From Sphingosinicella sp. YJ22 (GTDB lineage Bacteria > Pseudomonadota > Alphaproteobacteria > Sphingomonadales > Sphingomonadaceae), in NCBI RefSeq assembly GCF_011320075.1, contig NZ_JAANPA010000002.1:62001-126000 (forward strand): a stretch of DNA of 64,000 bases. The letters are read 5' to 3'. Position numbers and translations under genes: made by a program. This document shows, in pieces, positions 2,027 through 27,156 of the stretch; the first letter of the stretch is position 1; each line of letters begins with the position of its first letter. Below the pieces are notes generated by a model. It did no database searches. It worked only from the letters and a program-made list of their open reading frames with translations, and was not told where the DNA came from.

Positions 2027-3694
2027 CTAATCCGACCTCAGGCGGGCAAGGTCTGACGTTGGTCCTATGACGGCCAGCCAGACGCCGGGCCGGCTGAGGC
2101 CAACATAGGCTAGCTCCGGATCAATGAGCTCGTCTGCGTCGACCAGGATAACAGCTTGCCGCTCCAGCCCCTTGAACCGCCGCACCGTATCGAACACGAC
2201 CGCGTCTTCGCGTGAAGCCTCCGCTGTCGTCACAGTGAATCCACCGACCGTACCGCCTTGAAGCGCCGGATGATCATTTGTCGGACGGACCGTTAAAACC
2301 GCGATCTGACCCGGGGTTAGACCGTGTCGTGAAACCAGATCGCGCACGAGTCCATCTACCTTCGTAGCTGTATCGGCGCCGGTCGCTGCTTCGACCCACG
2401 CAACGGGTTCTCCTTCCGGACCCAATGCGCGCGTCATCTTTCCCCGGTACCAGCTTCGCGCGGCTGCATGGATGGCTCGCGTGTTCCGAAAATTGTGTAC
2501 CAGGTTGAATGGGCTTTGGGACAACTCCGCGATCGCCCTGGAGCGTCTAGTATAGACGCGCTGGTTGTCGTCGTAGAACACGTAGAAGCAGCCTGCCTCC
2601 GGATCGACGAGACAGCGTTGCAGCACATCAAGCCATTCATCGTCGAAATCCTGACCCTCATCGACGACGACGGCATCGAACCGCAGTTCAGGTCTACAGA
2701 CCATGGTATTCGCAAGAGCGGCAGGCAGTTGGTCATAGAAGGCCTGCCCGTCCCCGCGCACGCTCAGATCCGCCTTGCGTCGCAGGCGGTCGCAGACGGC
2801 ATGAAAGCTGCCTGCTTCGAGAAGCGGGATATCCTTCGTTATGCGCGCCAAATGCTGTCCGAGCGGGACATTGAAGCAGGTCAGCAATGTGCGCGAGCCG
2901 CTCTCTGCCAGACGAGCCGCCTTCTCGAGAGCCAGAATCGTCTTTCCAGTTCCCGCACCACCGGCGATTGCCATCCGGGGCGTGTCCCCGAGCATGTCGA
3001 GGATATCGACCTGCTCTGCGGTGAGCCTTTCGATCTGTCTGTAGTCGTTGCGCAGTGCTCGTGCGAGGGATGGCCGCAACTCGATCCGGCCCGCTACCAT
3101 CTCATGCAGCGCCCGCATACCATCGGGGCCAAGGCCGAGGCCGGGTCGGTCATTGGCATCGCCCTGCGCGGACAGCCGCGCCTCTACCCATTCGCGAAGA
3201 TATTTCAGGTCTTCGCCGAACAGGAAAATGCGAAGCGGCATGCCGGGGCCGAGATCGTGGGCGGGCTTCGCACTGTCCGGCAGGATCACGCCATACCGGG
3301 CGGTAACGAACCTGCGACGCCAGCCCGGCTGGATCTTCAGCTTCTTGAGCAGCTCATACTTGCTGTCGCGAGCCTGCTTGACCGGATCCTTGATCACATT
3401 TGTGATCCGAAGGCGGTTGGTCGAGGTCCAGCGCTCGGTCTTTTCCTCCCGCCGCACCGTGCCGCCCTTTACCTCGATTACCAGGAAGCCATGATCGGGG
3501 TGGGCGACCACGAAGTCCGCCTCGCCATCCTTCTCCTCCCCGCTGGATAACAGCCCGAGCCAAGGACGCGAGTACCAGCAAACCCAGTCATCCGGCAGCT
3601 GGTCGCGCAACCTGTTGTATACGTCGACTTCAGCCTCCCGATACGGGTTGGCGAGTACGTCATCCGGCAGCGGGTCAGGATACATCCGTGCCAT
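2027..3694 (-). CDS. NERD-nuclease / superfamily 1 helicase fusion protein of the DISARM-like array
   Basis: A 555-residue protein with two parts. Residues about 15-140 form a NERD (nuclease-related) domain with the PD-(D/E)XK-like signature GEADFVV then LVIEVKGG (Asp60, Glu74, Lys76). From about 225 onward lies a UvrD-like SF1 ATPase with Walker A GGAGTGKT (245-252) and Walker B VVVDEGQD (345-349). The C-terminus carries helicase motifs around RRFKGLERQAVILVD and AYVGLSRP. It is the last gene of the left arm, 3 bp after drmB, so it is surely co-transcribed. Since no phospholipase-D gene (drmC) is present, this is the best candidate for the array's DNA-cleaving subunit. That role is inference; the domains are seen. 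Confidence 0.85.
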   Translation of the reverse strand: MARMYPDPLPDDVLANPYREAEVDVYNRLRDQLPDDWVCWYSRPWLGLLSSGEEKDGEADFVVAHPDHGFLVIEVKGGTVRREEKTERWTSTNRLRITNVIKDPVKQARDSKYELLKKLKIQPGWRRRFVTARYGVILPDSAKPAHDLGPGMPLRIFLFGEDLKYLREWVEARLSAQGDANDRPGLGLGPDGMRALHEMVAGRIELRPSLARALRNDYRQIERLTAEQVDILDMLGDTPRMAIAGGAGTGKTILALEKAARLAESGSRTLLTCFNVPLGQHLARITKDIPLLEAGSFHAVCDRLRRKADLSVRGDGQAFYDQLPAALANTMVCRPELRFDAVVVDEGQDFDDEWLDVLQRCLVDPEAGCFYVFYDDNQRVYTRRSRAIAELSQSPFNLVHNFRNTRAIHAAARSWYRGKMTRALGPEGEPVAWVEAATGADTATKVDGLVRDLVSRHGLTPGQIAVLTVRPTNDHPALQGGTVGGFTVTTAEASREDAVVFDTVRRFKGLERQAVILVDADELIDPELAYVGLSRPGVWLAVIGPTSDLARLRSD

Positions 3695-3697
3695 TGT

Positions 3698-5563
3698 TCA
3701 GGCTCCCTGCCCCTGAAGCAGTCTGGTGAAGAAGCCTACCCCAGCCTCACCCGGCGATCCGACCAGCATGGCCCGGTCGAGATAGCGGTTGAAATGCTCG
3801 CATGCAGTTTCTGGGGCCAGCATGCAGGAATGGCATGCCGCGAGGTTTGAGCCTTCGGTTAGGGAGCTGATACCCTTCATGCAAAGCGGGTCGGAAGAGC
3901 ACCATTCCATAGCCCGGATGGCATCTTCAACGAGCTGCTCCATCCGTTCCGGCGTGCCCTGCCGAACCAGACCGCCCAGCGTGCCGTCGGCATCGGCGGT
4001 TGATGTGTAGATGAGAACACCGCACATCCCCGGCTCCGTACGGTTCGCGTAGAGTCGTTCCCGGAGCGAAGAGGTCGAATAGCCACATTCCAGAGACAAC
4101 TGTCGCATCATCGCGTGTGAAAAGCCGTGAATCAGCATGAGACGGGCGGTCACTGCGAATGGCGGCTCCGCGTCCTGCCCCATCCGCTCCTTCCACGATT
4201 CCCGCCAATGCGCGTCGACGACTGCCGCGCGTGCCGCTGCCGGACCATCGTCCCGTTCCCACGTCCGCACAGCTTCCTCGTCCAGCGTAAGAAAAATGCC
4301 CTCTCCACGCACCTCGATGGCTGGCAGCCACTTCTTCTGGGCCACGCTGAGCGGGGCAATGCCGGTCCTGTTGCTGAAATCCCCGGATGGTGGGTGTATG
4401 CGCGTGAAGCCATAGCAGGCGCGAACCTCCCGGAGCCTCACCACTCGAACGATGCGCGAGATAAGTCCTGCAAATCGGCTTGGCACGATCTCCGGCCGGA
4501 TCGAGAACTCGGCCGCTTCGTCGCGTGTGGCCGCGCCTAGAGTGAGCTGACGATATTCCTCTGATCGTATGTCCTGGCGGTCCGGCGCCTTGAGCAGCTC
4601 GAGCCGTTCGCGCACCCGGACCTTCATCTGGTCGAGCGTCATCGGCTCGCCGTCCCAGGTCGGCCAGACATAGAGTTCGACGATCATATCAGCCATTTCT
4701 GGCTTCGCGGCGGTGACAAGCGCGTTCCAGTGATGGCCCAGCGCAGTCTGAAACTCATCGTCCCAAGGGGGAATTGAGAGCGCAGACGCAACGGCTGGAA
4801 AGTACAAGTTCGATGCGCCCCTCTGCACGACGACGGGCGGAGCGCTGGAGGAGCACGCCTCGGGCGGACCCGGCAGCCACGGCCGCTTCCCTGCACAGGT
4901 GATCCCCAACCGTCGCATAGCTTCCGGCGAAAATGCTCCATCCATCGTCTGCGCGGCGCCGCAAGCTGTGCAGCTCACGACGAGGCCACGAAGGCCGGCC
5001 CCGCGACCCTGCAGCTTGAGCGGCTTTCGCCGGGTGCAACCCTGGTTGTGCCGGACCCAGCTGTGCCAAGGAAACTCGTCGAGGTGCCCGTGTTCACAGG
5101 CAAGAATAAAGCGCACCGGAACTACATGTACCGGACGACCATCCTTAGCGTCTGATGTGCATGGACCACAGTAGAGCGCAGGATCTCCCGGCTCTTCCCG
5201 CCACGAGGCTGCCGGCTGCAGGAACTCGCAGCGGGGACACTGGAGCCAGCCCGGAAATCGAACTCCCGCGAGCCTTCGTGGCTGAGTACGGCCGCCGGGC
5301 TGTTCTCCCGCTCTCTCCTCGCCCACGGGAGGCAACCGGAACCCGCCGACATTCAGCTGCTCCTGCAGGCGCGGCTCTTCGATGCACTGCTCGTTGTTCA
5401 GACCAGGCACGAGAGAAAGGTTGTCCCACTCATCAAGCCCAGCGGCCACCACCGAAACCGGAGCTCCTCCGTGACCGCCCGCCCTGAAATCGACAATGGC
5501 GCCGGGGCCATAGGTTGAAATCACCTGGCTGCGGCGAATTTTGCCCAACGTTCCGCGTGCCAT
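3698..5563 (-). CDS. drmB: DrmB-like DUF1998 protein (DISARM core)
   Basis: A 621-residue protein. It opens with the family hallmark IRRSQVISTYGPGAIVDF and has several zinc-type pairs (CPRC, CGPC, CEHGH, CTACG). It ends in a DUF1998 region (HGFSHAMMRQLSLECGYS, then a cysteine cluster around CHSCMLAPETAC). In DISARM, DrmB forms a complex with the helicase DrmA that engages incoming phage DNA. Its start overlaps the stop of drmA (TGATG), as expected for a tightly coupled pair. Length and order fit DISARM drmAB. A DISARM-related family outside the two classic classes is possible, since the partners differ. Confidence 0.85.
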   Translation of the reverse strand: MARGTLGKIRRSQVISTYGPGAIVDFRAGGHGGAPVSVVAAGLDEWDNLSLVPGLNNEQCIEEPRLQEQLNVGGFRLPPVGEERAGEQPGGRTQPRRLAGVRFPGWLQCPRCEFLQPAASWREEPGDPALYCGPCTSDAKDGRPVHVVPVRFILACEHGHLDEFPWHSWVRHNQGCTRRKPLKLQGRGAGLRGLVVSCTACGAAQTMDGAFSPEAMRRLGITCAGKRPWLPGPPEACSSSAPPVVVQRGASNLYFPAVASALSIPPWDDEFQTALGHHWNALVTAAKPEMADMIVELYVWPTWDGEPMTLDQMKVRVRERLELLKAPDRQDIRSEEYRQLTLGAATRDEAAEFSIRPEIVPSRFAGLISRIVRVVRLREVRACYGFTRIHPPSGDFSNRTGIAPLSVAQKKWLPAIEVRGEGIFLTLDEEAVRTWERDDGPAAARAAVVDAHWRESWKERMGQDAEPPFAVTARLMLIHGFSHAMMRQLSLECGYSTSSLRERLYANRTEPGMCGVLIYTSTADADGTLGGLVRQGTPERMEQLVEDAIRAMEWCSSDPLCMKGISSLTEGSNLAACHSCMLAPETACEHFNRYLDRAMLVGSPGEAGVGFFTRLLQGQGA

Positions 5564-8500
5564 CAGGCGTCTCCCAGTCGATTGCGGAGGATGAAGTCGA
5601 CCGATGCCTCGACACTCCGAAGGGAGTTGGGTGTCGGCCAGGCTCGAGTCTGCCTCCGGCCGGCTGCCGCCCGCTCCGCTGCAGTTTCGGCGGAGGTCAA
5701 AAGGGCCTCGTCTTTCCAGTCAGACCAGTAGCGAGGGAGCTTCCCTCTGCTGATCCATTCCCTGACGCGTCGTTCAAGATAGGTTCGGACGCCTTGAGCT
5801 TCCTCAGGATCGATCCGCTCAGCCCTCTTGGCGATATAGGCCACGATGCGCTCCAGTTCGTCCTCTCCGCGCAGGGCTTCGACGGGCTCGTCCCTGAGCA
5901 CGCGAACCTGATGCCGCGCCATCGCGACCAGAGGTGCATGGAGCGCTCGATCGCGTGCGCGTGGCGCGAACGGCGTCACGCTCGTCGCCTCAACCTCGCG
6001 GTAGAGCGTCTGGTGCCATGTCGCGAAAGTCTCGAAATGGCTGCGGTCACGCGCCTTGTTGTTATTGAACACCCCAACCACAAGGCCCGGCACGTTCGAT
6101 CGTCCCACACGGCTGGTCGCCTGAATATACTCGGCGATGCCCTTGGGCTGGCCATTCACGACCATTATACCCAGGCGGGAAACATCCACTCCGACCGAGA
6201 TCATGTTGGAAGCAAGCACGATGTCGACAGCGTCGGGATCACCTGCGCGCCTCTCGAGCTCCTTCAGAATCTCGGGGATGCGCGAAGAATCGACGCGACT
6301 GGTAAGCTCGGTGACGGTGAATGAGTCCCGGGGTTCTTCCTTCGGGCGTCGGCTGGCATAGTCCGCCGCTGATTTGGCGGTGTCGTCCTGCATCAGCACC
6401 AAGGCGCCGCCCAGCTCGCGCAGCGAGTTGAAGTAGGTCACCAAGGTCCAGTAATTGTCGCGCTCTTCGTCTGGCAGATCTGGCGCAGCGGCTGCCTGAA
6501 GAATGCTCGCGGAAAGAGCCTGAAGAGCGAACTTTGCTGACCGACCAGCAGTCGTGATCCCGGCATACAGCCGCCCTGGCGTAGTTCCCGGATCGGCTGC
6601 GACGGCGAAACCGGAATCTGTGTGATCCAAGCCTGGAGGGGGGAACTGGAAAGTGGCCCGATCGAACAGAGCGCGTATCTGGTCCTCAGCCCGACGGATG
6701 GTGGCCGTCGAGCCGATCACCTTGGGCCGCTTGCCGCCCGAGGTGCAGAGCGAATCCACGGCTATTTCATATAGGCCGGCCATAGTGCCCAGCGGACCCG
6801 AGATCAGATGCAGCTCGTCCTGAATGATCAGATCGGGTCGGGCATTCTCGGTGCCCAATCCGAATATGCGCGCCGACCGGGGATTCCGGACGATCTGCGC
6901 GAATTTGTCCGCTGTACCGATCAGCAGCGACGGCATCTCCCGGTATACGTCTTCGTCCACCGTCCAGATAGGCAGGTGGTCGCCTGCGGCGGCCAACGCA
7001 CACCCAGTAGTTTCGCAGGTCGCCCAGATCTGATGAGCATGGGGAGCACGCGCCCACTTCAGCCGCCCCTTGCAGCTTGGGCAGTCCCTTACCTGCGCCG
7101 GTGTGCTTGCCGCACCAGTCGCGAGTGCCTCAACGGCTTCGTCGACACTATTGGGGCTCGAATCCCGACCCACCCAGAGCCCGAGTGAAATTGGCGGTCC
7201 GTCCCGGAGCTGCCTGGCAGCCTTTTCATCGCAGCTGGGCTCCGCCGTAGTACGGACGACCTCGCACGCGCAAATGAGCGCCGCAGCACGCTCGTATTGT
7301 TGGACGGTCAACAGCCTCAGCGTGTAGCGCATGAGAACAGTGACGCCACCGGATGCCGTCGGCTCCCGCCGCAGTCGTCGGTGAAAGATCGCAAAGGCTG
7401 TCAGCAGCAGATACGCCTCTGTCTTGCCGCCGCCCGTCGGAAACCAGATGAGATCCATTGTCTCTCTGTCGGCGTCCTCCGGATCGATGGTTGACCGAAG
7501 AGCCAGAAGACAGAATGCGATCTGGAATGGGCGCCAATGGAGGCTGCCGCTGTCTTTCCAGCATCGCTGAAGCTGCATCGCGCGATTCGCGAGGCGGAAT
7601 GCCAGCTGTGCATCCCTGTCCTCTGCCAACAGAGCAATTCCGCCCCGAATCCGGCTGAGCGCCACCTCGCAACGATCGAGATGATCACGCCCCTGCTTCC
7701 GCAGATGATCCGGGAGGCTGGTGAGATCCTTTTCCCGAAGACCGATCCATTCAGCATAGGCATCTGCAAGTCGGCCGAGGCCAGCGACGAGGTCGTCCCC
7801 TGAATTGTCGGTAAGCCAGGCAGCGGAGAGAGGTCCGGAGACACCGCCAGAAACGAGCCGCCGGAACACTTCGTGACCGTCGGGACTCGTGGCTGGCACG
7901 GTTGCGACGGGCAGCCAGGTGGTCCTGACGCTCCGGACGTGTCCTCGAGGGGCAAACCAGCCAGCGGAACAGACGTGCCCCACAGCGTATTCGGCAGCAT
8001 CACGCCAGATCAACTCCGCCGCCTTGCCATCGGCATCCATGGCCGCCACCCTCGGCGGTCTGGGGCGCAGCTCGGTCGCCCCGGCGGCGGCTACCTTAAG
8101 CGAGACCTGAAAAAAGCACTTCTCCTCGATCTCCCGCCGGTCTGGGGCAGGAGACAGGGAGTGCCCGTTGGCGAGCACGGCTGTCACCAGCAGGCCCTCC
8201 TTCCAGGGGGTTGTGCGAACGTGAAGCAAGAGGCCGGGTATCCCGGCGGGACCGAGGTCGATTTCCTCCGGTTCCTCCGCGAGAATATGATCGCGGATGT
8301 GCACCCGTTTTGCCATCCGCTGCCACGACACGGGGTTGCGGCGAGTTCGGCCCGCATCGCGGGGCTCGCCACTTGTATCTTCGATACCGAGATACACGCC
8401 ACAGCTGATCTGCAAGTCGACAGCGGGGATGGCGTCCGATCCAACGCCAAGCGCGAACGACAACCCGGCCGTGGCCGGACGGACTGCATTGGCGTTCGCC

Positions 8501-8712
8501 ACCGCATCTCCGGCAGTGGACGCCTCTGCGCCCCCTTCTTCAGCCGTGTCCGCGTCGTTGTCCTCCTCGGGAGGTACTGGCGTTCGTGCGGGGAATAGAA
8601 CTCCCGTCAGATACCGATCGGTTGGTCGATCCGTTATGACCTCAGCCACCGAGAGCGGCCCGATGAGATCACTCGCGACACGATTCAGCAGTCTACTTCT
8701 TGGGTCGGACAC
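5563..8712 (-). CDS. drmA: DrmA-like superfamily 2 helicase (DISARM core)
   Basis: About 1049 residues from the GTG at 8712, chosen because GGAGA lies 9 bases upstream and the stop of the previous gene is only 14 bp away. Longer open frame upstream overlaps that gene and is rejected. Motifs: WRPFQIAF and Walker A FPTGGGKTEA near residue 425, motif II QDELHL near 630, GSTATIRRAEDQI, and motif VI QATSRVGRS near 864 after NMISVGVDVSRLGIMVV. This combination is characteristic of DrmA, the large helicase that, with DrmB, grips phage DNA in DISARM. The gene sits between a UvrD-like helicase and drmB in one operon. Confidence 0.85.
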   Translation of the reverse strand: MSDPRSRLLNRVASDLIGPLSVAEVITDRPTDRYLTGVLFPARTPVPPEEDNDADTAEEGGAEASTAGDAVANANAVRPATAGLSFALGVGSDAIPAVDLQISCGVYLGIEDTSGEPRDAGRTRRNPVSWQRMAKRVHIRDHILAEEPEEIDLGPAGIPGLLLHVRTTPWKEGLLVTAVLANGHSLSPAPDRREIEEKCFFQVSLKVAAAGATELRPRPPRVAAMDADGKAAELIWRDAAEYAVGHVCSAGWFAPRGHVRSVRTTWLPVATVPATSPDGHEVFRRLVSGGVSGPLSAAWLTDNSGDDLVAGLGRLADAYAEWIGLREKDLTSLPDHLRKQGRDHLDRCEVALSRIRGGIALLAEDRDAQLAFRLANRAMQLQRCWKDSGSLHWRPFQIAFCLLALRSTIDPEDADRETMDLIWFPTGGGKTEAYLLLTAFAIFHRRLRREPTASGGVTVLMRYTLRLLTVQQYERAAALICACEVVRTTAEPSCDEKAARQLRDGPPISLGLWVGRDSSPNSVDEAVEALATGAASTPAQVRDCPSCKGRLKWARAPHAHQIWATCETTGCALAAAGDHLPIWTVDEDVYREMPSLLIGTADKFAQIVRNPRSARIFGLGTENARPDLIIQDELHLISGPLGTMAGLYEIAVDSLCTSGGKRPKVIGSTATIRRAEDQIRALFDRATFQFPPPGLDHTDSGFAVAADPGTTPGRLYAGITTAGRSAKFALQALSASILQAAAAPDLPDEERDNYWTLVTYFNSLRELGGALVLMQDDTAKSAADYASRRPKEEPRDSFTVTELTSRVDSSRIPEILKELERRAGDPDAVDIVLASNMISVGVDVSRLGIMVVNGQPKGIAEYIQATSRVGRSNVPGLVVGVFNNNKARDRSHFETFATWHQTLYREVEATSVTPFAPRARDRALHAPLVAMARHQVRVLRDEPVEALRGEDELERIVAYIAKRAERIDPEEAQGVRTYLERRVREWISRGKLPRYWSDWKDEALLTSAETAAERAAAGRRQTRAWPTPNSLRSVEASVDFILRNRLGDA

Positions 8713-8726
8713 CGGGGAAATCTCCG

Positions 8727-11405
8727 TCAGCGGGCGGGGTTGAGCCAGACGATGGGCAGTCCGGCGATCACAGGCTCGAGCCAAAAGCGGGGACCCCCGT
8801 CTCCCACGGGGAGCGCGGCCGTACGTGCTGCGACCATGTAGATGCCCTTGATCCGGCCGCCGGGCCAAGCACCCGGGCCGGCGGCTGCGGCGGCAATTTC
8901 GCGGAGCGACTTACCGAATGTTGCTGTCAGGCTTCCGACCCTGAATCCGTCGTCCGGGCCGCCGTCGAAGTGGAGAATCCACTCTCTGTGCTCACGCTCG
9001 GCGCGAAGGGGTACAGGTCGCCACGAATGTTTCCACAAGAGGTTCTGGGTGCCGTGTGTCCCGTCATCCGCCAGTTCCGGAGGAGCTTGGTCAACGTCCT
9101 CGTCGAGGCCGACTTCAACGCGCACATCCGTGCGCCCACCCCGTGTCCATGGCTGCCATAGTCGCTTTGATCCAGGGAGACTGTGCAGATAGCCATGCGA
9201 GGACCCAATCACGAGTCGCGTCCGTGCCCGGGTAGCGCCCACGAACAGAATCCGCGCCTCCTCATCCCAGTCCGTTCGCGACGCCTCTTCCGGCCTTCGA
9301 GGAAGCATCAGGTGGACCTCCTCGGCTTCGCGCCCCTTGGCGCCATGGATCGTCGTGAGAAGCGGCCCCGATCGAGCTCCCAGGTCGGTCTGCTGGACTT
9401 CAAGCGGAGGAGGCGAGGCAGCGAGACGATCAGCAAGTCGCCTGAGGTCCACGGCGCCAGTGCCGGCAGGCGCGATGCGCCGCAGTACGGCCCAGGCTGT
9501 ATCCCGCGACAGCAAGGGAGCTGGAGCTAGCTGCCGCCAGAGCGTTTCGAATTCGGTCCTGTCCAGCCGGTCGCCCCGGCAGGACACCAACAGCGCGCCG
9601 ATCCAAGGTTCGACAATTTCGGCCCTGCCGGTGAGGCGAATGCGGAAGCTGCGGCCTTCCGCCCAGTGACTCGCCGAGGCCGCGAGCATAGCTGATCGCG
9701 AGCGGAAGAGGACCAGAGCACTAGAGCTCGGAGGTGTGGTCTTTCCAACGCTGATTGCCGGCGTGGCCCCTGCTGCCAGTTCGATGGCCGAGCGCACCGC
9801 ATCGTAGCGGTCAGTCGGTGATGGGGCGTTGTCGGTGATCGCCAGGCGCATCGATCTGAACAGGTCAGCCAGATCGGCACTGCGCGTTCGGTGATCCGAA
9901 CGGAGGGCCACCCGACGGAAGGAAGGGGCAGCGGCCGCGAGCCTGTCTGACAGCGGCTGGCCGGGATCCGCGCTGCTGAAACCATAGATCGCTTGGGCCG
10001 GATCATAGAATACGGTCACGCCGCATTCAGCCGAAAGGCGGAAGATCAGGGCCGCAACGAGCCGGTTCCGGTCCCCAGACAGATCCTGAGCCTCGTCCAC
10101 TACCAGGTGCTGGATGCCAGCGACAAAATCGATGAGCTGGACATCGCCGGCTTCGAGCAGGTTCAGTGTTTCGGCGATCCCACCGTCGTAGCCTGCAGGC
10201 GTAGGCATGTCGGGATCGGCGAACCCCTGCCGAAGACGCCATGCGAGTGAGTCTATGGTAATAATACGGATGTCGCGCGCATCCGCCGGCTCGCGCAGTA
10301 GTCCTGCAATCCGCGAGCGTATCTCGGCTACTGCAACGCGAGTGAAACTGATCATCCAGATCCGGCTCGGTGGAGTGCCCCCGTCCACGAGTGCGCTGAC
10401 CCGTCGGCAGGCCGTCCAGGTCTTTCCACATCCCGGAGGAGCCTCAACGAGCAGTCGCGCCGGAGCAGCCGCGTGGATGACCGCATCCTGATCAGCATCC
10501 CGAACGGATGAACCCTCGCTCGAACCTGCCAATCCTGCCCATGCCGCAATCGCCGATGCGGCGTCGGACGGGAGCTGCCAGCGCAGAAGGCTATCGTCTT
10601 CGGGCGCCCCTACCAAGGCCAGTGCGCGTAGAAGTTGGGGCGGCAGGGGTCGCGGGAGCGACCAGTCCGCCACCAGCTCTAGACCCCAGAGGTCCAAGGC
10701 GATCCAGCGGGCGATTTCCGGCGCGCTGATAGCTCGGGCGACCTCTTCCGGATGAAGGACGAAAATCGCCTCCCGACCATCCTCAAGGAGACCGAAGGCA
10801 CCGCCAGCATCGTCGAGCCGCCCCCATATCCCGTCCGGGGGTATATTTGCCGGCTCGCCCTTGACCCTCGCAGCGTCCAGGAGAAGCTGGGTGGCCTGGG
10901 ACAGATCGGTTTGGGTCGGCAGGCCCAAAGCGGAAAGCGCGCTGCGCCACCGTGGCGGGCCGAGAAATTCCTCCAACGGGCGAGCGCTGCTGAGATCGGC
11001 AGCGGGCCGGACGATGGACGAGGGAGCAGAAGCGGAAGGGGTATCGACTGCGGACTCAGAGCCGCCGAGTAAAACAGCCGAGTTCCCTCCGATCTGGACG
11101 CATTGCTCAGGACAGGTGAGGGCAATATCGCCGTCGTTAGTCGCTATCGTGGCCAGATCGCCCGCAGCCTCAAGAACAGCGAGCGTTGCAGAAGCCCGTG
11201 CACGCGCCGCCGAGGCTGGAAATCCGAGGAAAACAGCATCTGCCTCAGCTCGTCCCAGAAGCGCATCGCGTTCGATCGCTCCTGCAGACATGACGGCAGT
11301 TCGGAGCAGGCGAGCCATCTCGGCGAAGCTCAGCCCATCGTCCGTTTCCGAAATGACACCAGCTTCGAGCGCAGCTTCCGACTCAGTCAGCGCTCTCAGT
11401 TCCAT
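8727..11405 (-). CDS. UvrD/Rep-like superfamily 1 helicase, first gene of left arm
   Basis: An 892-residue protein when started at the ATG at 11405, which has GGGCGGGGG just upstream; the longer open frame would run into the divergent gene. The first 300 residues match no domain I know. Then come Walker A EAPPGCGKTWTA (near 320), motif II VVDEAQDLSG (near 436), motif V TTIHGAKGREAEEVHL (near 682) and motif VI LFVGATRARTRLVIG, all typical of UvrD/Rep/PcrA helicases. Classic DISARM has no such subunit. It shares the short control region with the right arm and should unwind or translocate on DNA for the system; the exact role is unknown. Confidence 0.8.
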   Translation of the reverse strand: MELRALTESEAALEAGVISETDDGLSFAEMARLLRTAVMSAGAIERDALLGRAEADAVFLGFPASAARARASATLAVLEAAGDLATIATNDGDIALTCPEQCVQIGGNSAVLLGGSESAVDTPSASAPSSIVRPAADLSSARPLEEFLGPPRWRSALSALGLPTQTDLSQATQLLLDAARVKGEPANIPPDGIWGRLDDAGGAFGLLEDGREAIFVLHPEEVARAISAPEIARWIALDLWGLELVADWSLPRPLPPQLLRALALVGAPEDDSLLRWQLPSDAASAIAAWAGLAGSSEGSSVRDADQDAVIHAAAPARLLVEAPPGCGKTWTACRRVSALVDGGTPPSRIWMISFTRVAVAEIRSRIAGLLREPADARDIRIITIDSLAWRLRQGFADPDMPTPAGYDGGIAETLNLLEAGDVQLIDFVAGIQHLVVDEAQDLSGDRNRLVAALIFRLSAECGVTVFYDPAQAIYGFSSADPGQPLSDRLAAAAPSFRRVALRSDHRTRSADLADLFRSMRLAITDNAPSPTDRYDAVRSAIELAAGATPAISVGKTTPPSSSALVLFRSRSAMLAASASHWAEGRSFRIRLTGRAEIVEPWIGALLVSCRGDRLDRTEFETLWRQLAPAPLLSRDTAWAVLRRIAPAGTGAVDLRRLADRLAASPPPLEVQQTDLGARSGPLLTTIHGAKGREAEEVHLMLPRRPEEASRTDWDEEARILFVGATRARTRLVIGSSHGYLHSLPGSKRLWQPWTRGGRTDVRVEVGLDEDVDQAPPELADDGTHGTQNLLWKHSWRPVPLRAEREHREWILHFDGGPDDGFRVGSLTATFGKSLREIAAAAAGPGAWPGGRIKGIYMVAARTAALPVGDGGPRFWLEPVIAGLPIVWLNPAR

Positions 11406-11497
11406 GCACCCCCGCCCACTATTGTTTGCCGCCCGCAGCCAGCCTAGGCTCGGCCGACGATGCTCGTCAAATGGCGTGATCGGGGGAAAAACGGGGG
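11406..11497. promoter_or_regulatory. Divergent control region of the DISARM-like array
   Basis: Only 92 bp separate the start of the left-arm helicase (11405, minus) from the start of the right-arm protein (11498, plus). Both operons must be driven from here. G-rich runs just before each start (GGGCGGGGG on the minus strand, CGGGGGAAAAACGGGGG on the plus strand) serve as ribosome binding sites. I could not pick clear -35/-10 boxes by eye. A shared promoter region would keep the six array proteins in step. Confidence 0.55.
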
Positions 11498-14400
11498 ATG
11501 TACAGCGCGTTGGCGGACGTGGGGCATGAGCAGGAGACGCCAACACCACCGCGTGCACGCGATCTCGCGGGCTTCCACGCGCTCGTGGCAGAGCGGCTTG
11601 CAAAACTTCGGAACGAGCGCGGCGACTTGCCTGTTTACGGGTTGGAGCACGGACTTTCCCGACAGGAAGTCGGCTGGCTGAACCAGCTGATTGGAACGGA
11701 GATCCGGGATGGTGGCGTGGGGACGAACTTTCGCCGCGTCTGCCTCACGCTTGTCGCGGCGCTCTCGGAGATAGGCTACGACTATCGGGGTACCGGGACG
11801 GACTTCTGGCCAAAGCTGGAGCCTGTGTTTGGAGCCGCGATCCGCGACCGCGAGCGTGAGGCCGTTTCACAGCTCTTCGATTTGGCTCATCGCCACTACG
11901 GTATTCGCCAGCCGGTGGACAGCTCGTGGAACCGCGCGTTCCGCCACATTGCCTGGCCGATTGCCAACGCGATCGCGCCACGGGAAATCCATCGGGCCTT
12001 GGCCAAGGCCCTGCGCGAGTCATACCGAATAGCGGGTGATATCGCCGATGAGGATGCGCTTGTGGAACGCCTCAGGGCTATCGCCGGACGTGCCGGGTCG
12101 CCCCGGCTTGTGCAGTGGCTTGATGACCGCGACCTCGCCGCAGCGGTGGCTTGGCGGCTTCTTGGCGAGCCAGATCCCAAGTCCCGCATTTCCACCGACA
12201 CCTTGCAGCGCATCTTTGGCGATCTTTCATCCGATGCCGTAGCCAAGCGGGCCGTCGCCCGAGCGACCGAGCTCCATCGGCAACGCGCACAGACGGCAGC
12301 CCGCCCGAAGCCGTTGGGTCGTGCAAGACTGCTCCTAGTGGACGACGCTGCAGATGGACTAGCGCTGTTCGCGGAATTGCCCTGGTTGGCCGCCGAAGTC
12401 CGGCAGACGCTCAGTACCACGGTAGCTCGGAGCGGAAGCTACCCACGACTTTGGGGAGCGACTGCACCAATCGATCCGGACCGCCTTTTTTCCGGGCTGC
12501 CCATCCCATTGGCTGGGATTGACCTTTGCCACGTCATCGACGCCACGCCCCCGTTCATTGCCGTCAATCCCGGGCCTGGGGCCGATCTGGCGGAACAGCT
12601 CGCCGAGATGGGACCGGCACTCACACTGCCTGTTATCCTGACGCCGAGTGGGTCCGAAGGCCGACACGCCGAAGTCTCGGGACGATCCGTCCCGGAAGGT
12701 TCGTTCCGTCTTCTTGTTCGCGGCGGTACTGAACCACCGGCTGAGGTTCAGCTCCTGGGCATGGTCGGAGGCCTACATTGCTTCGAGATCGGTGAGACAA
12801 CGGGCGCTATCACTGCCTGGCTGAATTCGCTTGGCCTCGCGCGCACCGGCGCGATCGGGGTGGAATTCGGTGGAGCCGCAGCGCTTGGCCACACACTGCA
12901 GGGGCCGGTTTTTGCGGCAGGCCAGCCGCTACTCCTGAGGTTGACCGGGAGGCAATCGGACCAAACCGCTGTCGTAACCGCGAGAGGCCATCAGCCGGTG
13001 ACGCTTCCGCCCGGTGGGCTGCTTTCAATTCGTGGGGCCTCCCCGGGCGAACATAATCTTACGGTAAGTGTTGGCGGCGAGCAGCTCCGGGTCGGGTTTA
13101 CCGTCGTTGCTGCCGAGCCGGTCAGTGCCGTGCTGACCGTCTCCACCGATCCTGTAGCTCCCGTCGCGGATGACCTGCGTGATGGACGCCTTACCATCCA
13201 TCTTCGATCAGCCATTCCGCTGCGCGGTGCCGACATAGTTATCGCGGTCACTGCCGGCGACAACGTCGCGAGCGTCGCAGATCAGGTTGACGAATGGCCC
13301 CAATCCTTTCCCCCCCACTCACCACTCATGCAGTCTCTGACCGATGCACTGCGGCAGTCAGCTATCAGCCGGGGACGGAGGCTGGAACTCCACGTGTCCG
13401 TGGGTGGGACTTGGACGTGGAGCCAAGCGCTGGATTGGGAGATGCGGGAGTGCGAATGGGAGTTCGTGGACGGAGAGTGGCACGTCCTGACCGAAGAGCT
13501 GGAGTTGCCCGTTCTCGCGATTTCCGGATCCGCACCACTCGAACCTGACTATGAAGCTGTCGCAACGGATTCGTCTCCACTGCTGAGGGTTCCCCTGCTG
13601 GAAGGCACACCGCTGTTCCGAGAGGCGTTGTGCACCGCCCCTCGCCGGGTCAGGCCGGGCGGCTTCACCATCGCTCTTCCCGAACGGTTGCTGCGCGAAC
13701 CTGTGTCGCGGGGAAAGGCCGCAGGGTTCCTGCCATGCCTTGAGGCATGGCTTGCTTGGGCATCGGCTCGGCCGGAACATCTCGTAGCCGATGCAGCCCG
13801 GCGACAGGTCGCAGCTAAAGCTGAGTCGCTCGTCGTGACGCAGCTGTGCGGGGAAGCCTGGGCGCGTGCGGAGCAGGCCGGCGGCCCGCTTGGAGCAACG
13901 GCGTGGTCCACCCTTGCACAGATCGCCATTTCGCGGGGCCTCGCCGCAGGTGGAATGTTGCCGGAAATCCCCGCTGGCGAGGAAGCACGAATCCACTCGC
14001 TGCTCGCCCGAGCGTTCGAGACGGCGGTTCCCTTGCTTTGGAGTGACGGCTGCACGCCCGATCCGGACCAGCTGGCCTGTGACCTCGACATGGCTGTTAT
14101 CGATGCGTGGGAAAAGCTCGCGAATCTGCGCAAGGCAGAAGGTCGATCATCAATCGAAGACCCGGATACCAGCGGTGACGCGGAGCACTGGAAAGCCGCT
14201 GTTGCTGAGGCACGGGAGCGGCATGCGGCCGCGAAGCTTGCCCGTTTTCTTCTACCTAGCTCGCGCGCGCAGCTCCTTATGCGAGCGGATTATCGCCTTC
14301 TCGCGGAAAACGACATCGTAGCCCTGCTAATGGACACGCACGTCGACCTGAACCTCCGGCCACCGGCTTGGGTCGGGCCAGATGAAATAGACACAGCTTT

Positions 14401-14551
14401 CAGAATCTGGACAGAGCCGCGAGCCGTGCTGGCGCGAGGAGACTGGCAGGACAATGCACTCCGACTTCTCATCGACCGGCAGTCGTCGCGGGCAGCTCGC
14501 TATGCTGCGCTCCGATATCGCGCGGCCAGAGGGATGGAGCCGCAGCCGTGA
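11498..14551 (+). CDS. Large protein of unknown function, first gene of right arm
   Basis: A 1017-residue protein I do not recognise. The N-terminal 250 residues are helical and charged (VAERLAKLRNERGDLPVYGLEHGL, read in pieces; FRHIAWPIANAIAPREIH). The middle, about 400-640, is rich in valine, threonine and glycine with short beta-like repeats (LLSIRGASPGEHNLTV, GFTVVAAEPVSAVLTV), suggesting one or more beta-sandwich domains. The C-terminal third is helical again. I see no Walker motif, nuclease signature or membrane segment. It overlaps the SNF2 helicase by GTGA, so the two are translationally coupled. It could be a DNA- or partner-binding scaffold, by analogy to DrmE or Dpd subunits of unknown function; that is a guess. 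Confidence 0.75.
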   Translation: MYSALADVGHEQETPTPPRARDLAGFHALVAERLAKLRNERGDLPVYGLEHGLSRQEVGWLNQLIGTEIRDGGVGTNFRRVCLTLVAALSEIGYDYRGTGTDFWPKLEPVFGAAIRDREREAVSQLFDLAHRHYGIRQPVDSSWNRAFRHIAWPIANAIAPREIHRALAKALRESYRIAGDIADEDALVERLRAIAGRAGSPRLVQWLDDRDLAAAVAWRLLGEPDPKSRISTDTLQRIFGDLSSDAVAKRAVARATELHRQRAQTAARPKPLGRARLLLVDDAADGLALFAELPWLAAEVRQTLSTTVARSGSYPRLWGATAPIDPDRLFSGLPIPLAGIDLCHVIDATPPFIAVNPGPGADLAEQLAEMGPALTLPVILTPSGSEGRHAEVSGRSVPEGSFRLLVRGGTEPPAEVQLLGMVGGLHCFEIGETTGAITAWLNSLGLARTGAIGVEFGGAAALGHTLQGPVFAAGQPLLLRLTGRQSDQTAVVTARGHQPVTLPPGGLLSIRGASPGEHNLTVSVGGEQLRVGFTVVAAEPVSAVLTVSTDPVAPVADDLRDGRLTIHLRSAIPLRGADIVIAVTAGDNVASVADQVDEWPQSFPPHSPLMQSLTDALRQSAISRGRRLELHVSVGGTWTWSQALDWEMRECEWEFVDGEWHVLTEELELPVLAISGSAPLEPDYEAVATDSSPLLRVPLLEGTPLFREALCTAPRRVRPGGFTIALPERLLREPVSRGKAAGFLPCLEAWLAWASARPEHLVADAARRQVAAKAESLVVTQLCGEAWARAEQAGGPLGATAWSTLAQIAISRGLAAGGMLPEIPAGEEARIHSLLARAFETAVPLLWSDGCTPDPDQLACDLDMAVIDAWEKLANLRKAEGRSSIEDPDTSGDAEHWKAAVAEARERHAAAKLARFLLPSSRAQLLMRADYRLLAENDIVALLMDTHVDLNLRPPAWVGPDEIDTAFRIWTEPRAVLARGDWQDNALRLLIDRQSSRAARYAALRYRAARGMEPQP

Positions 14552-17487
14552 TTTCCGGAGGCGGAGACCCCTATTACGCTCTCACCCTCGGAGCGCAGGC
14601 GATGCGTCGACGGGTCGAGGCGGCTGGATTGGCTATCGGAGGCGCGCTGGGCGTTGCCGCTGAGCCCTATCCCCACCAAGTCGCTGCAGTCCGCAGGGTG
14701 CTGACCGACACTCAGGTCCGCCATCTTCTTGCTGACGAGGTGGGACTCGGGAAGACCGTCCAGGCGCTCATGATCCTCAATGCCCTGCGCTGGCAGAACC
14801 CCGCCCACAAAGCCGTCATTCTCCTGCCTAACCGCCTGATCGATCAGTGGCGGCGGGAATGCTGGACGCGCGGCCACTGCAAGGTGTCCGTTTTCGGTGA
14901 AGATGCCCAAAGAGACGATGAGGCGTGGGTGCGGCTGGTCCGTCCACAGAGCATCCGATCCGGTGAGTTCCGGCTCCAGCCGGAGCGCTTCGACCTGCTG
15001 GTTGTCGACGAGCCGCAGCTGATACCAGCGGAGGTGATGGAAATCGTCGAGCGGACCGCCGGCGATTTCCGGCAATTCCTGCTCCTGTCGGCGACACCGG
15101 GGCTGGGCGACCCAGCCAAGCTGCGCCGCATCATGGCGATGCTGGAGCCGGATCGAGCCGCGATAGCGTCGGCCAAAGCGCATGATCTCCCTGCGCTGCT
15201 CGACGACATCGAGGCAAGCGCTGCAGAAGGCGAGCACGGTAATAGTATGCTGCCGGACACGGTCTGGCGGACCTTCAGCATCTCGCGCCGGATCCTCCGC
15301 TCAACCCGGGCTGAATGGGGGCGCTACCTGCCGCAACGTCGCTACGATCATGTTAGCGTAGGACCCTTGGCCTCTGAGCGGGAGCGCGTGACGCTCGGCA
15401 TGGACTGGGTGGGTAACGTCCGGCAACAGGGCGCGCGCACTGATACATGGCGGGCAGCTCAGGTCATTCATCGTGGAGCAGCCTCCACCCGCGCCTATGC
15501 GTCCGGACAGGCCGATGCCACTGGGTTACTCGCCAGGGCGGCTGCGGCGGGCGCGGGAGTGCCGGGTGATAGCCGGCTGGACGCTCTCCTCGATATCCTT
15601 TGCGGGATCTGGCACCAGGACGCAGACGAACAGGTGATCATTGTCGCCGGCGACAACCCGAGCATCGATTTCCTGAAGCCCCGGCTTGCGAGGTATTTCG
15701 GCGGCGACAGCCGATCGCTGCCAATGGCTGAGCTCCGTCGGGAGGGTGAGGCGTCCGACAGCGAGGAAGCTGACATCAGGGCCATGGACGCGCAACTCGC
15801 TGCGTTTGCCCGTGGCGAAGCGCGCGTGATGCTGCTCGGCGAATGGGTGCAGGCGGGGCTCAACCTTCACCACTTTGCGCGGAACATCATCTTCTACGCG
15901 ACGCCTTGGGACAGTGACGTCGTGGACCAGCTGATCGGTCGCCTTGACCGGTTGCGCCCCAACGGCCTGTGGCGTGGCGATCAAGGACGCCATTTCGGCC
16001 GGATTCGAGTCTGGACCATCAGTCAGGAGGGCACCGCCGAGGAGCGCGTCCTGGCCGGTCTGGAAGCGCTGGGAGTATTTGAGCGCCCTCTTCCGCCGCT
16101 GTCGCCCGAAGATGCGCTTACGATCGATGGTGAGTTGAAGGGACTTGCTTTCACAGGTGAGCGTGACCCGGTGCGCCGGTTGTCGGCCATGGCGGCAGGC
16201 TGGAACGGCACCGGCCTGCAGTCCCGGCTGTCCCGATTCTCGCCCTACAGTGCGGCTGCGGCACAGGCGCTGTACGACGGTCTCCAGACTAGTCCTATGC
16301 CTGGTCCGCTGGTGCGTAGCACTGTTGAGGCTGATACGTTCACGTCGGCGTCTGAGCGGGCCCTTCGCGGCTGGCTTACCTTGATAGAGCGTTCCGACAC
16401 GTTTGCCGTCGACCATCGGCGGGACCGGCTCGATCCGGACGTCAGATTCATGACGATCTGGTACCGGTCCAAGCCGGCCATGTTCGATCCGTTCCAGATC
16501 GCCGGAGTGGAAGGGAATAACTGGATGACCGGGCACGTCCCCTTCATCACAGCCCGTCGGCATCTCGCGCAGCCGCCACGGATGACGGTCAACACCGATG
16601 AGGGAGAGGAAGGTGGCCGTCCGCTGCGGTTTCTCGACCATGGCGACGAGGTCCATGACTCGCTTGTGGATGGATTTCTCTCCTACGCGGGCACCAACTG
16701 CAGTCCATCTCAGCCGCAACCGCTTCAGGTCGCTCTCGATCCGCGCCATCCCCTGCTCGCGACCTGCTCCGGCAAGGTGCTGGCGCTGGCTGCGGGTTGG
16801 TCAGACCCCGGCGAGCTCGCAATGCCCGCCTTCAACTCGGAGACCCTCGGGCGAATGGCAACAGCGCCCACCGAAGCCCAGAGAGCGGCGCTCGCGGGCG
16901 ATGTGCGCCGCGCTGCCGACTGGTGGCTTGCAGACCAGCGGTGGCTCCGGGACCATATTTCTGCGCGCAGCTATTACACCGCGCTGGTGCGCTCGGAGAA
17001 CGGCTGGACTCGTCTGCCGGACGAGATCGCCCGCCTTGCGTTCATGCCAGTACCCGATCTGCCAGATAGTCGCCCCGCACGGTTACGTGGCACCCCGCCG
17101 AGACTGGCACCTGCTGATGTGCAGGCCGCTTGCAGACGAGCACTGGGCTGTATTGTAGAGCAGGCCAACGGCGCTAGGGATGAAGCCCTTGGCGCCTTCC
17201 AGGAGGCCCTCGCATCTCGCATTCAGGTGGTGACCGTCGAAGGCGGAGACATCATCGCTGCGAAAGAAGCGGCACTTGAACGCCTGCGCTCGGAGCGGAC
17301 GTCGGTACAGGACTGGGCGCGGGAGGGGCAGATTGCGGCCGCAAAGCGAAGTCTCGAGATGGCACGTACGGCAGTCTCGCAGCGGCTGGCGTGGCTGGAA
17401 GCGATGCCCGAAAAGATCGCTGAAATGACTCCTAGGATCCTCGGCGTGGTTATCATGAGAGCGGCTCCATTTTCAGATGAATGCTGA
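14548..17487 (+). CDS. SNF2-family helicase (DrmD/DpdE-like) of the array
   Basis: A 979-residue protein starting at a GTG that overlaps the previous stop. Features: HQVAAVRRVL (Q-like motif), Walker A LLADEVGLGKTVQAL (63-70), a motif II reading VVDEPQLI near residue 154 rather than DEAH, SATPGLGDP, and motif VI VVDQLIGRLDRLRPNG near 464. This is the SNF2 layout. Class 1 DISARM carries an SNF2-like helicase, DrmD, and the 7-deazapurine Dpd system carries DpdE. By eye I cannot say which is closer. The C-terminal half after about 520 is unfamiliar and probably system specific. It is followed by a 126-bp gap before the methylase, so it closes the right arm. Confidence 0.8.
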   Translation: MISGGGDPYYALTLGAQAMRRRVEAAGLAIGGALGVAAEPYPHQVAAVRRVLTDTQVRHLLADEVGLGKTVQALMILNALRWQNPAHKAVILLPNRLIDQWRRECWTRGHCKVSVFGEDAQRDDEAWVRLVRPQSIRSGEFRLQPERFDLLVVDEPQLIPAEVMEIVERTAGDFRQFLLLSATPGLGDPAKLRRIMAMLEPDRAAIASAKAHDLPALLDDIEASAAEGEHGNSMLPDTVWRTFSISRRILRSTRAEWGRYLPQRRYDHVSVGPLASERERVTLGMDWVGNVRQQGARTDTWRAAQVIHRGAASTRAYASGQADATGLLARAAAAGAGVPGDSRLDALLDILCGIWHQDADEQVIIVAGDNPSIDFLKPRLARYFGGDSRSLPMAELRREGEASDSEEADIRAMDAQLAAFARGEARVMLLGEWVQAGLNLHHFARNIIFYATPWDSDVVDQLIGRLDRLRPNGLWRGDQGRHFGRIRVWTISQEGTAEERVLAGLEALGVFERPLPPLSPEDALTIDGELKGLAFTGERDPVRRLSAMAAGWNGTGLQSRLSRFSPYSAAAAQALYDGLQTSPMPGPLVRSTVEADTFTSASERALRGWLTLIERSDTFAVDHRRDRLDPDVRFMTIWYRSKPAMFDPFQIAGVEGNNWMTGHVPFITARRHLAQPPRMTVNTDEGEEGGRPLRFLDHGDEVHDSLVDGFLSYAGTNCSPSQPQPLQVALDPRHPLLATCSGKVLALAAGWSDPGELAMPAFNSETLGRMATAPTEAQRAALAGDVRRAADWWLADQRWLRDHISARSYYTALVRSENGWTRLPDEIARLAFMPVPDLPDSRPARLRGTPPRLAPADVQAACRRALGCIVEQANGARDEALGAFQEALASRIQVVTVEGGDIIAAKEAALERLRSERTSVQDWAREGQIAAAKRSLEMARTAVSQRLAWLEAMPEKIAEMTPRILGVVIMRAAPFSDEC

Positions 17488-17613: not shown

Positions 17614-18915
17614 ATGTCCGCAACGATTCCCCATAGAAAGCTGGTCATGACCGACACCATCACCGCCGACCGCCGCGACGTGCTGGTGAGGGCTCGAAGC
17701 ATTTTCACCCAGAAGGAACTGGCGGAACGCCTCGACTACACGGCAAAGCAGATCGGCCGCTGGGAGAAGGGCGAGTGCGAAGTGCCCACGGCCGTCGTGC
17801 CGGCCCTCCAGCGAATTCTCGAGGATCGGGCGCCCTACCATGCTGCTCCCGCTGCCGACTTCACATTCATCGATCTGTTTGCCGGTATCGGCGGGATCAG
17901 GCTCGGCTTTGAGGCGGCGGGTGGCCGGTGCGTTTTCACGAGTGAATGGGACAAGTACGCACAGAAGACTTACGTCGAAAACTTCGGCGAAGGGCATGCG
18001 ATCGAGGGCGACATCACCAAGATCGAGGCGGCCGACATACCGGAGCACGACGTGCTTTTGGCTGGATTCCCCTGCCAGCCATTCAGCCTGGCGGGAGTTT
18101 CGAAGAAGAACGCTCTGGGCCGGCCGCACGGGTTTGAGTGCACGACGCAGGGAACGCTCTTTTTTGATGTGCAGCGGATTATTGCCGAGCGGAGACCCAA
18201 GGCGTTTCTCCTCGAGAACGTGAAGAATCTCGTCAGCCACGACGGTGGAAACACCTTCCGTGTCATAATGGATGTGCTCGAGAGGCAGCTGCACTACCAA
18301 GTCTATCCGATGGTCGTCGATGGGCGCAGGTTCGTGCCGCAGCATCGTCAACGCATTTTGCTCGTCGGTTTCCAGAAGGACGTGGGCTTCGACTGGGAAA
18401 AGGTGCTCGCGAAAATGCCGGCTGTCGCCGACGGTCCTCGGCTCAGGACGGTCCTCCATCCCGAAGACGGAAGCGAAGCTGATGTAGACGATGGCCGCTA
18501 CATCACCGCCGACGGCAAGGTGGGAAAGAAGTACATCCTGACCGACCGTCTCTGGCAGTATCTGCAGGGTTATGCCGAAAAGCACCGGCAGGCCGGAAAC
18601 GGCTTTGGCTGCAGCGTCGTTGGCCCGCAGGATACGAGCCGTACGCTTTCGGCGCGCTACTACAAGGATGGATCGGAAATCCTGATTTCGCGCGGCAGGG
18701 GCAGAAACCCCCGCCGGCTGACGCCGCGTGAGTGCGCCCGGCTGATGGGCTATCCCGACACTTTCCGCATCCCTGTTTCGGACACTCGCGCGTACAAGCA
18801 GTTCGGCAATTCCGTGGTGGTTCCGCTGATGGCCGAGGTGGCGAAGGCGATGAAGCCTGGCATAATGCATCTGGTTAAGGGTGAGCCGCTGCAGTTTGAA
18901 CTCCTGCAGGACTGA
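17614..18915 (+). CDS. C5-cytosine DNA methyltransferase with N-terminal HTH (Dcm/M.EcoRII type)
   Basis: A 433-residue enzyme. Residues about 30-70 form an XRE-type helix-turn-helix (FTQKELAERLDYTAKQIGRW). Then come the C5-methylase motifs: I FIDLFAGIGGIRLGFE (85-100), IV GFPCQPFSLAG with catalytic Cys154, VI ENVKNL, VIII RQRILLVGF and X KQFGNSVVVP. It transfers a methyl group from SAM to cytosine. The neighbours (Vsr and EcoRII-type nuclease) point to CCWGG as target; DrmMII of class 2 DISARM is also reported to modify CCWGG. The N-terminal HTH suggests autoregulation, as known for M.EcoRII/M.SsoII. Start chosen for GAGG 8 bases upstream; an internal ATG at 17647 is the alternative. Confidence 0.92.
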   Translation: MSATIPHRKLVMTDTITADRRDVLVRARSIFTQKELAERLDYTAKQIGRWEKGECEVPTAVVPALQRILEDRAPYHAAPAADFTFIDLFAGIGGIRLGFEAAGGRCVFTSEWDKYAQKTYVENFGEGHAIEGDITKIEAADIPEHDVLLAGFPCQPFSLAGVSKKNALGRPHGFECTTQGTLFFDVQRIIAERRPKAFLLENVKNLVSHDGGNTFRVIMDVLERQLHYQVYPMVVDGRRFVPQHRQRILLVGFQKDVGFDWEKVLAKMPAVADGPRLRTVLHPEDGSEADVDDGRYITADGKVGKKYILTDRLWQYLQGYAEKHRQAGNGFGCSVVGPQDTSRTLSARYYKDGSEILISRGRGRNPRRLTPRECARLMGYPDTFRIPVSDTRAYKQFGNSVVVPLMAEVAKAMKPGIMHLVKGEPLQFELLQD

Positions 18916-18922
18916 AGGCCCA

Positions 18923-27130: not shown

Positions 27131-27156
27131 CCGGAGATCCCTTCCAAAGCGTCGCC

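Follow-up and report, generated by a model that had tools for sequence, protein, structure and literature searches.

A six-gene array in the genome of Sphingosinicella sp. YJ22 shares its helicase core with DISARM, and we consider it very likely that it represents a distinct, co-inherited DISARM-related system. The array lies in a stretch of 64,000 nucleotides (contig NZ_JAANPA010000002.1, positions 62,001 to 126,000), referred to here as the window. The best explanation overall, in which we place moderate confidence, is that it is a mobile DISARM-related phage-defense system composed of two portable modules. The array is probably a phage-defense system, a role that we read from the sequences, and the evidence in hand comprises co-location of the genes in a fixed order, matching groups in the gene trees, exchange of the two arms between loci, retention of motifs, and low conservation of the 1017-residue protein that we call P5.

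Organization of the array and its island

The array consists of two divergent operons, and direct checking against the sequence finds all six reading frames open at the following positions.

2027..3694, minus strand: NERD-nuclease/SF1 helicase fusion, 555 aa (PD-(D/E)xK-like motif, EADF...IEVK; Walker A)
3698..5563, minus strand: DrmB (DUF1998/MZB), 621 aa (NCBIfam DrmB_fam, 510 bits, cut-off 240; Pfam MZB)
5563..8712, minus strand: DrmA, YprA-family SF2 helicase, 1049 aa, GTG start at 8712 (family scans)
8727..11405, minus strand: UvrD/GajB-like SF1 helicase, 892 aa, ATG start (Walker A after a head of ~320 aa)
11406..11497, no strand: divergent spacer of 92 bp between the two operons (sequence)
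11498..14551, plus strand: P5, 1017 aa, a family without a name (unmatched at E 0.1 in Pfam, NCBIfam and PADLOC)
14548..17487, plus strand: SNF2-type helicase of the DpdE/DrmD/BrxH/RapA kind, 979 aa (family scans)

The leftward operon runs from the UvrD-like helicase through DrmA and DrmB to the NERD-nuclease/helicase, and the rightward operon from P5 to the SNF2 helicase; the start codons of DrmA (GTG) and of the UvrD-like helicase (ATG) have been corrected from the sequence. DrmA and DrmB have 1 nt in common, P5 and SNF2 overlap by 4 nt, and the gaps between DrmB and NERD and between UvrD and DrmA are 3 nt and 14 nt, respectively, tight joints that fit with co-transcription. An earlier note on this DNA had described a 92-bp control region for the array; the spacer between the two arms, at 11406-11497, does measure 92 bp, and the spacers of related loci are mostly short as well, by approximate measurement between the longest open reading frames.

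The array is carried within a 28.7-kb integrase island at a tRNA-Gly gene, with a G+C content of about 0.59-0.66 in the island versus 0.66-0.74 beyond 31 kb of the window. The ends of the island and the genes that adjoin the array are as follows.

1086..1109, plus strand: att repeat, 24 bp, at the tRNA-Gly 3' end (repeat pair)
17614..18915, plus strand: C5 cytosine methylase (Dcm type), optional neighbor (family scan)
18881..19372, plus strand: Vsr mismatch endonuclease, optional neighbor (family scan)
19369..20589, plus strand: EcoRII-C restriction endonuclease, optional neighbor (family scan)
28395..29744, minus strand: tyrosine integrase of the island, just inside its far end (family scan)
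29833..29856, plus strand: att repeat, 24 bp, repeated at the far island end (repeat pair)

The Dcm-Vsr-EcoRII trio begins 126 bp after the SNF2 gene and was missed in the earlier note; since a cytosine methylase thus adjoins the array, the absence of a methylase applies to the six genes alone. Dcm and Vsr genes accompany six of 32 DISARM-type loci (in flanks of up to ~10 kb, some cut by contig ends): besides the window these are L004, L005, L014, L017 and L024 (L-numbers are our locus labels), where an EcoRII-C or MvaI/BcnI enzyme adjoins them. L031 and L060 each have partial pieces at a contig edge, and the strand varies among loci. We have rejected the trio as a core part of the system because Dcm and Vsr occur in only those six loci. 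A rough methylase motif scan of open reading frames of at least 200 aa matched only six DruE-type helicases and missed the known Dcm genes too, and it therefore says nothing on the absence of methylases.

The genes downstream of the trio include DUF4145, DUF4365, Nmad2 and Nmad3 domains. The Nmad2 and Nmad3 (nucleotide-modification-associated) genes, at 23494-24782, and the DUF4365 gene, at 22745-23245, possibly form another modification or defense set of the island. Further along, at 26561-27846, an Xre/MbcA/ParS-type antitoxin gene lies beside a gene for a 229-aa product without a match, and the two are possibly an island toxin-antitoxin pair.

Family assignment of the six proteins

Scans of the Pfam, NCBIfam and PADLOC-DB 2023 libraries bear out the earlier description of DrmA and DrmB as plain members of their families, and of their partners (the NERD-helicase, the UvrD-like helicase, the 1017-aa P5 and the SNF2 helicase) as an unusual set. 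DrmA scores 689 bits with the PADLOC DrmA model and 886.5 with NCBIfam DrmAS, narrowly below the cut-off of 950. The best NCBIfam match of the SNF2 protein is DpdE (129, cut-off 500), and its 71 bits with the DrmD model, against a cut-off of 610, do not qualify it as DrmD.

The head of ~300 residues to which the earlier note had drawn attention in the UvrD-like helicase is modelled as a winged-helix-like region with beta strands, although the model has no significant structural match in the PDB (best E 0.5, among 50 matches listed). An ARMADA-type RelE domain was considered for this head and dropped, with no RelE among the 50 matches listed, which is a weak test on a modelled head.

A loose NERD nuclease motif pattern is found in 25 of 26 homologues of the NERD-helicase (the miss is L010), and its Walker A motif also in 25 of 26 (the miss is the contig-cut piece in L028). 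With both motifs kept the nuclease is probably active, although no DrmC was found. Among the six proteins and 20 chosen neighboring open reading frames there is neither a DrmC or other PLD domain nor a DrmMI adenine methylase, so that the two absences from the array that had been reported earlier hold for these neighbors as well; the one PLD-named NCBIfam model with a match aligns solely to the helicase portion of SNF2 (35 bits, versus 1100). There is likewise no DrmE among the listed NCBIfam and PADLOC matches of the six proteins (for two helicases, P0004 and P0006, the best 25 of 37 and the best 25 of 35 PADLOC matches, respectively).

Relationship to known defense systems

DISARM class 1 is characterized by the SNF2 helicase DrmD and the adenine methylase DrmMI, and class 2 by the C5 cytosine methylase DrmMII and DrmE. 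The array resembles these systems in having DrmA, narrowly under the NCBIfam cut-off, and a separate DrmB, above its own (510 versus 240), and it has an SNF2-type helicase as in class 1. It differs in that neither DrmC nor DrmE was found and DrmMI and DrmMII are not among its six genes; the SNF2 protein lies far under the DrmD cut-off; and there are two divergent operons with a NERD-helicase, a UvrD-like helicase and P5 added. A Dcm-type C5 methylase, the kind of methylase found in class 2, adjoins the array together with a restriction enzyme of its own. The drmABC genes, in which DrmC is a phospholipase D, are described as common to both DISARM subtypes in a passage of PMC10270631. Because DrmC and the class-specific partners fail to appear we do not file the array under either class, but the array is not alone in going without DrmC, as L069, which with L071 and L073 makes up our comparison loci with drmD, has drmD and drmA named by NCBI and no drmC listed either.

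Druantia I offers a second comparison, in that a member of the P5 family occupies the DruB/DruC position in some loci and six loci combine P5-SNF2 with DruE; the array differs in its DrmA/DrmB core, in the lack of DruA, DruD and DruE, and in the lack of any sequence relationship between P5 and DruB or DruC. ARMADA type II, as described in parts of PMC12458937, likewise combines an SNF2-type helicase, a YprA-family helicase and a GajB-like helicase that has an additional head at its N-terminus. The ARMADA YprA helicase is a one-piece protein with a C-terminal Vsr nuclease, accompanied by a PglX-like methylase (PMC12458937, in part), whereas the array has P5, no PglX methylase or any other methylase among its six genes, and a YprA helicase split into DrmA and DrmB with no Vsr match; the nearby Vsr belongs with Dcm. 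The pairing of a NERD nuclease with a YprA-family helicase recalls TALON (PMC12458937, same sections), but no TPR-CSD or TBP gene is seen among the array proteins scanned, the NERD domain is fused to a helicase, and the core is of the DISARM type.

The array reads to us, from its sequence relationships, as a DISARM-related branch and not as DISARM class 1 or 2, ARMADA or Druantia. Term searches of the open-access literature, which cover neither sequences nor supplements, returned no description of the six-gene array or of P5. A figure legend in Bell et al. states that the DISARM-like clade holds many uncharacterized DISARM-like classes (PMC12458937, in part), and the array proteins may therefore sit in that tree without a name.

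Recurrence of the array

When 84,980 species genomes were scanned with a P5 profile we identified 30 loci, a number that is a lower bound and biased toward P5 proteins with the scanned motifs, because the scan used two short patterns. P5 is followed by SNF2 in all 30, and homologues of all six genes are present in 13, with NERD in two open reading frames in L026. In a further 11 loci UvrD and DrmA run divergently from P5-SNF2, and the available flanks contain no NERD homologue; DrmB is in view in 10 of these, and in L020 neither NERD nor DrmB can be judged because the contig ends inside DrmA. These NERD-less loci make up a Rhodobacterales branch, which we denote A'. In four loci a DruD-like gene, NERD and DruE take the place of DrmA and DrmB, and two loci are cut or broken, L025 by a contig end and L014 with a UvrD gene that has no DrmA behind it. 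In L005 and L036 P5 itself is fragmented. By their record titles all 30 loci come from Alphaproteobacteria, except for an Acidobacteriota bin (L023), and the gene order and divergent orientation are repeated in many genera.

The suggestion that this is a distinct and recurrent branch of the DISARM family has thus held up, since the failure of the genes to co-occur elsewhere, which would have spoken against it, is not what we find: six-gene homologues stand together in 13 of the 30 loci. The idea of one indivisible set of six genes fares less well, given that no NERD homologue is seen in 11 of the 30 loci, of which one is cut by its contig end, and that the arms occur with other partners.

Arrays are also present outside the 30-locus scan, on plasmids (L002, whose record ends within SNF2; L004, from Rhizobium TA1; and L005, with frameshifts), on a viral contig (L040) and in a further genome (L060). 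Seven plasmid records contain P5, counting H4, a second Rhizobium TA1 record, and the plasmid loci described here come from the other six. A single-sequence search of the viral contigs with P5 gave no match, and a profile search gave the one contig, L040. In samples of whole genomes P5 is found in one of 197 relatives, that of the window itself (0 of 196 others, by single-sequence search), in four of 385 genomes of the class (its own and three Druantia-I-type relatives) and in three of 398 of the phylum (its own, one six-gene array and one of the Druantia-I type), a rare and patchy distribution such as is expected for a mobile defense system.

Seven loci of the NERD-less branch (L019, L021, L027, L032, L033, L034 and L036) have a convergent open reading frame of 606-642 aa to the left of DrmB; that of L021, the only one of the seven checked, encodes an SNF2-domain protein. 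L017 has an AIPR protein in this place.

Gene trees

Trees were built by a quick method under one model from representative sequences (34 DrmA, 33 P5, 28 SNF2 and 19 NERD); long branches were flagged for, among others, L060, L003, L023 and the outgroup. The P5, SNF2 and NERD trees place the loci in largely matching groups. The window groups with L010 and L002 with a support of 94 for DrmA and 99-100 for P5, SNF2 and NERD, and the loci with a Druantia core fall on one side of a branch with supports of 86 (P5), 100 (SNF2) and 100 (NERD). In the DrmA tree the array and Shinella-kind sequences are split from five other DISARM-type DrmA proteins (SH-aLRT 100), and A' is a single group; neither the P5 tree nor the DrmA tree unites the six-gene loci, as L060 joins A'. 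The trees fit with co-inheritance of the genes and do not give the direction of exchange.

Exchange of modules

Six loci (L003, L007, L023 and L037-L039, of which L007 and L038 are one species) have P5-SNF2 facing a DruD-like gene, a NERD-helicase and a DruE of the Druantia I type, which in L003 scores 1528 bits with PADLOC DruE1. Their hosts are Leisingera, Paracoccus versutus, Mesorhizobium, Roseicella and a Bryobacterales bin, and the DruD-like gene is weak (25-38 bits) in the P. versutus and Mesorhizobium loci L007, L037 and L038. A more distant P5 relative of ~950 aa lies between DruA and DruD in L006, L044, L057 and L058, from Nitrosococcus watsonii and genomes of the window's class, where it occupies the position of DruB and DruC in E. 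coli Druantia I; profile comparison relates it to P5 with a probability of 99.7 over 735 columns. The distant relative is also seen in L059, cut by a contig end, and in L041, broken by an IS, with no DruA seen.

The loci with the ~950-aa protein can be described in their own right as a Druantia I variant with the order DruA, ~950-aa P5 relative, DruD and DruE (L006:13681-24430, L044, L057 and L058), in which DruB and DruC are absent; the ~950-aa protein of L006 and L044 has no PADLOC match. Searches for E. coli Druantia I loci at the DNA level gave no match with a DruE query and matches in 64 of 5426 genomes with a DruA query.

The left arm likewise occurs with another partner. In Shinella sp. 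PSBB067 (L068:501-16217) it is part of a run of seven co-directional genes, encoding in order a WYL protein, a type III methylase, a Res-like helicase, UvrD, DrmA, DrmB and the NERD-helicase. The last four are those of the array, all in one direction, and the WYL protein, type III methylase and Res-like helicase stand in place of P5-SNF2; a profile search found no P5, and there is no SNF2 homologue, within 22 kb. A locus of Paracoccus sp. JM45 (L028:350-9831), counted among the 13 six-gene loci, is a composite in which UvrD occurs twice in tandem beside P5-SNF2, with a DrmA that the DrmA tree places with the Shinella kind, and is possibly a snapshot of such an exchange of arms.

Each arm is found with other partners and both are therefore portable, and neither has been seen without a partner module except in L014, which is broken or cut, and in L059, which is cut. 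This suggests that such defense systems are assembled from front-end and back-end modules that can be exchanged. We also note another small DISARM-like set on a plasmid of Photobacterium sp. TY1-4 (L070:9070-16836), with the order DrmA, DrmB, a UvrD/GajB-like helicase and a 483-aa protein without a match.

Structure and conservation of P5

The structural model of P5 is of moderate confidence (pLDDT 77.7, pTM 0.60) and predicts a helical N-terminus (23-267), Ig-like beta domains (~275-735) and a helical C-terminus (744-1010). Foldseek comparison gives generic Ig-repeat matches in the PDB, one of them at E 7e-4, and mostly Ig-like and virion proteins among viral proteins, none at E 0.001 (the best 50 of 729 and the best 50 of 474 matches, with query-length TM of 0.06-0.13); since the PDB and viral matches are merely generic Ig-like ones, assignment of a function from the fold was dropped. 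Profile comparison gives no signal for P5 as DruB, DruC or a fusion of the two, which rules these out.

The closest parallel is with DruH, the presumed sensor of Druantia III, whose Ig-like domains lie between helical ends and whose positively selected sites are in the Ig-like part (PMC13192584, in the sections seen). Like P5, DruH is a large protein (1119-1155 aa in five records, 1017 aa for P5) encoded beside a YprA helicase, and the predicted P5 layout has the same helical ends around Ig-like domains. The two differ in having no detectable sequence homology (hhalign probability 0.2), and DruH is therefore rejected as a homologue and kept as an analogy only.

Of the six proteins P5 shows the lowest average conservation, with a mean pairwise identity of 45.2%, compared with 49.0 for UvrD, 52.5 for SNF2, 61.8 for NERD, 65.6 for DrmA and 67.5 for DrmB (105 pairs among 15 loci, the pairs not being independent). 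For this comparison 16 of 19 six-gene loci were chosen, leaving out L005 (frameshifted), L026 (split NERD) and L028 (composite), and L002 was then dropped because its SNF2 is cut by the record end. The identity of P5 is below that of DrmA, DrmB and NERD in all 105 pairs, below SNF2 in 104 and below UvrD in 98. Within P5 the Ig-like part is the least conserved stretch, with 17 of 461 positions at which 90% or more of 30 rows share the residue of the window protein, compared with 35 of 248 and 36 of 271 in the helical ends. This low conservation could reflect weak constraint instead of an arms race.

Proposed mechanism and alternative explanations

We propose, tentatively, a mechanism in which the rightward operon would supply a front end and the leftward operon a back end. 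P5 would be a fast-changing scaffold or sensor with Ig-like domains, a role suggested by its DruH-like layout and by its having the lowest conservation, least in the Ig-like part; together with the SNF2 translocase it would recognize infection or foreign DNA, and the two would recruit or load the back end. There, the DrmA-DrmB helicase and the UvrD-like helicase that opens duplex would constitute the unwinding core, and the NERD-helicase would be the effector, standing in as the DNA-degrading enzyme for the PLD nuclease DrmC, which is missing here. DrmAB is described in PMC9142583 as a helicase that a loop keeps inactive until 5'-overhang DNA triggers it, with a requirement for both ATP hydrolysis and DNA binding. 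Action on phages, sensing by P5, the NERD protein as effector and a single complex containing both arms are what we infer for the array, and the lack of NERD in the A' branch indicates that it is not essential everywhere unless replaced.

The two arms could instead be separate units, P5-SNF2 and NERD-DrmB-DrmA-UvrD, that often travel together and each work alone. We regard this as unlikely, but it is the alternative to be taken most seriously, as each arm is seen without the other, the left arm in Shinella and P5-SNF2 with the Druantia core. Yet P5-SNF2 lies beside a DrmA- or DruE-type gene in 29 of 30 loci, the exception being L014, where UvrD is not followed by a DrmA before the contig ends, and the Shinella left arm is itself joined to a co-directional methylase/Res-like pair. 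The arrays also keep their divergent order. Less probable still is an ordinary relative of DISARM with the adjacent Dcm as its methylase, much as class 2 has a C5 methylase: the proximity of the Dcm-Vsr-restriction enzyme trio to SNF2 and the recurrence of Dcm and Vsr in five further loci lend themselves to this view, but the pair is present in only six of the 32 DISARM-type loci, the strand varies, the trio brings its own restriction enzyme, and neither DrmC nor DrmE was found.

That the array is a module for DNA repair or maintenance of the island, and not for phage defense, seems very improbable. YprA-family helicases do include repair enzymes (PMC12458937, in part) and the array lies in an integrase island, but DrmA and DrmB match DISARM-type models, a restriction-modification trio adjoins them, and the distribution is patchy, with none among 196 other relatives by single-sequence search.

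Implications for DISARM and Druantia

What is new here is a common, swappable front end linking DISARM and Druantia. It may be, though we put this at slightly short of an even chance, that P5-SNF2 is a general recognition and loading front end for different YprA-helicase effectors, and that DISARM and Druantia are not separate systems but different combinations drawn from one kit of interchangeable sensor and effector modules. If so, the effectors plugged into it would be DrmAB-UvrD-NERD or DruE-DruD-NERD, the DISARM-type effector arm would also plug into a type III restriction-modification front end, as in Shinella, and P5 would be a sensor family without a name that works like DruH. P5, which is absent from Pfam, NCBIfam and PADLOC-DB 2023, is also a marker for detection tools. 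With P5 standing beside both kinds of core, and with natural exchange both of the helicase core that accompanies it and of the front end that precedes the DISARM-type arm, it becomes testable how DISARM and Druantia recognize phage and by which subunit.
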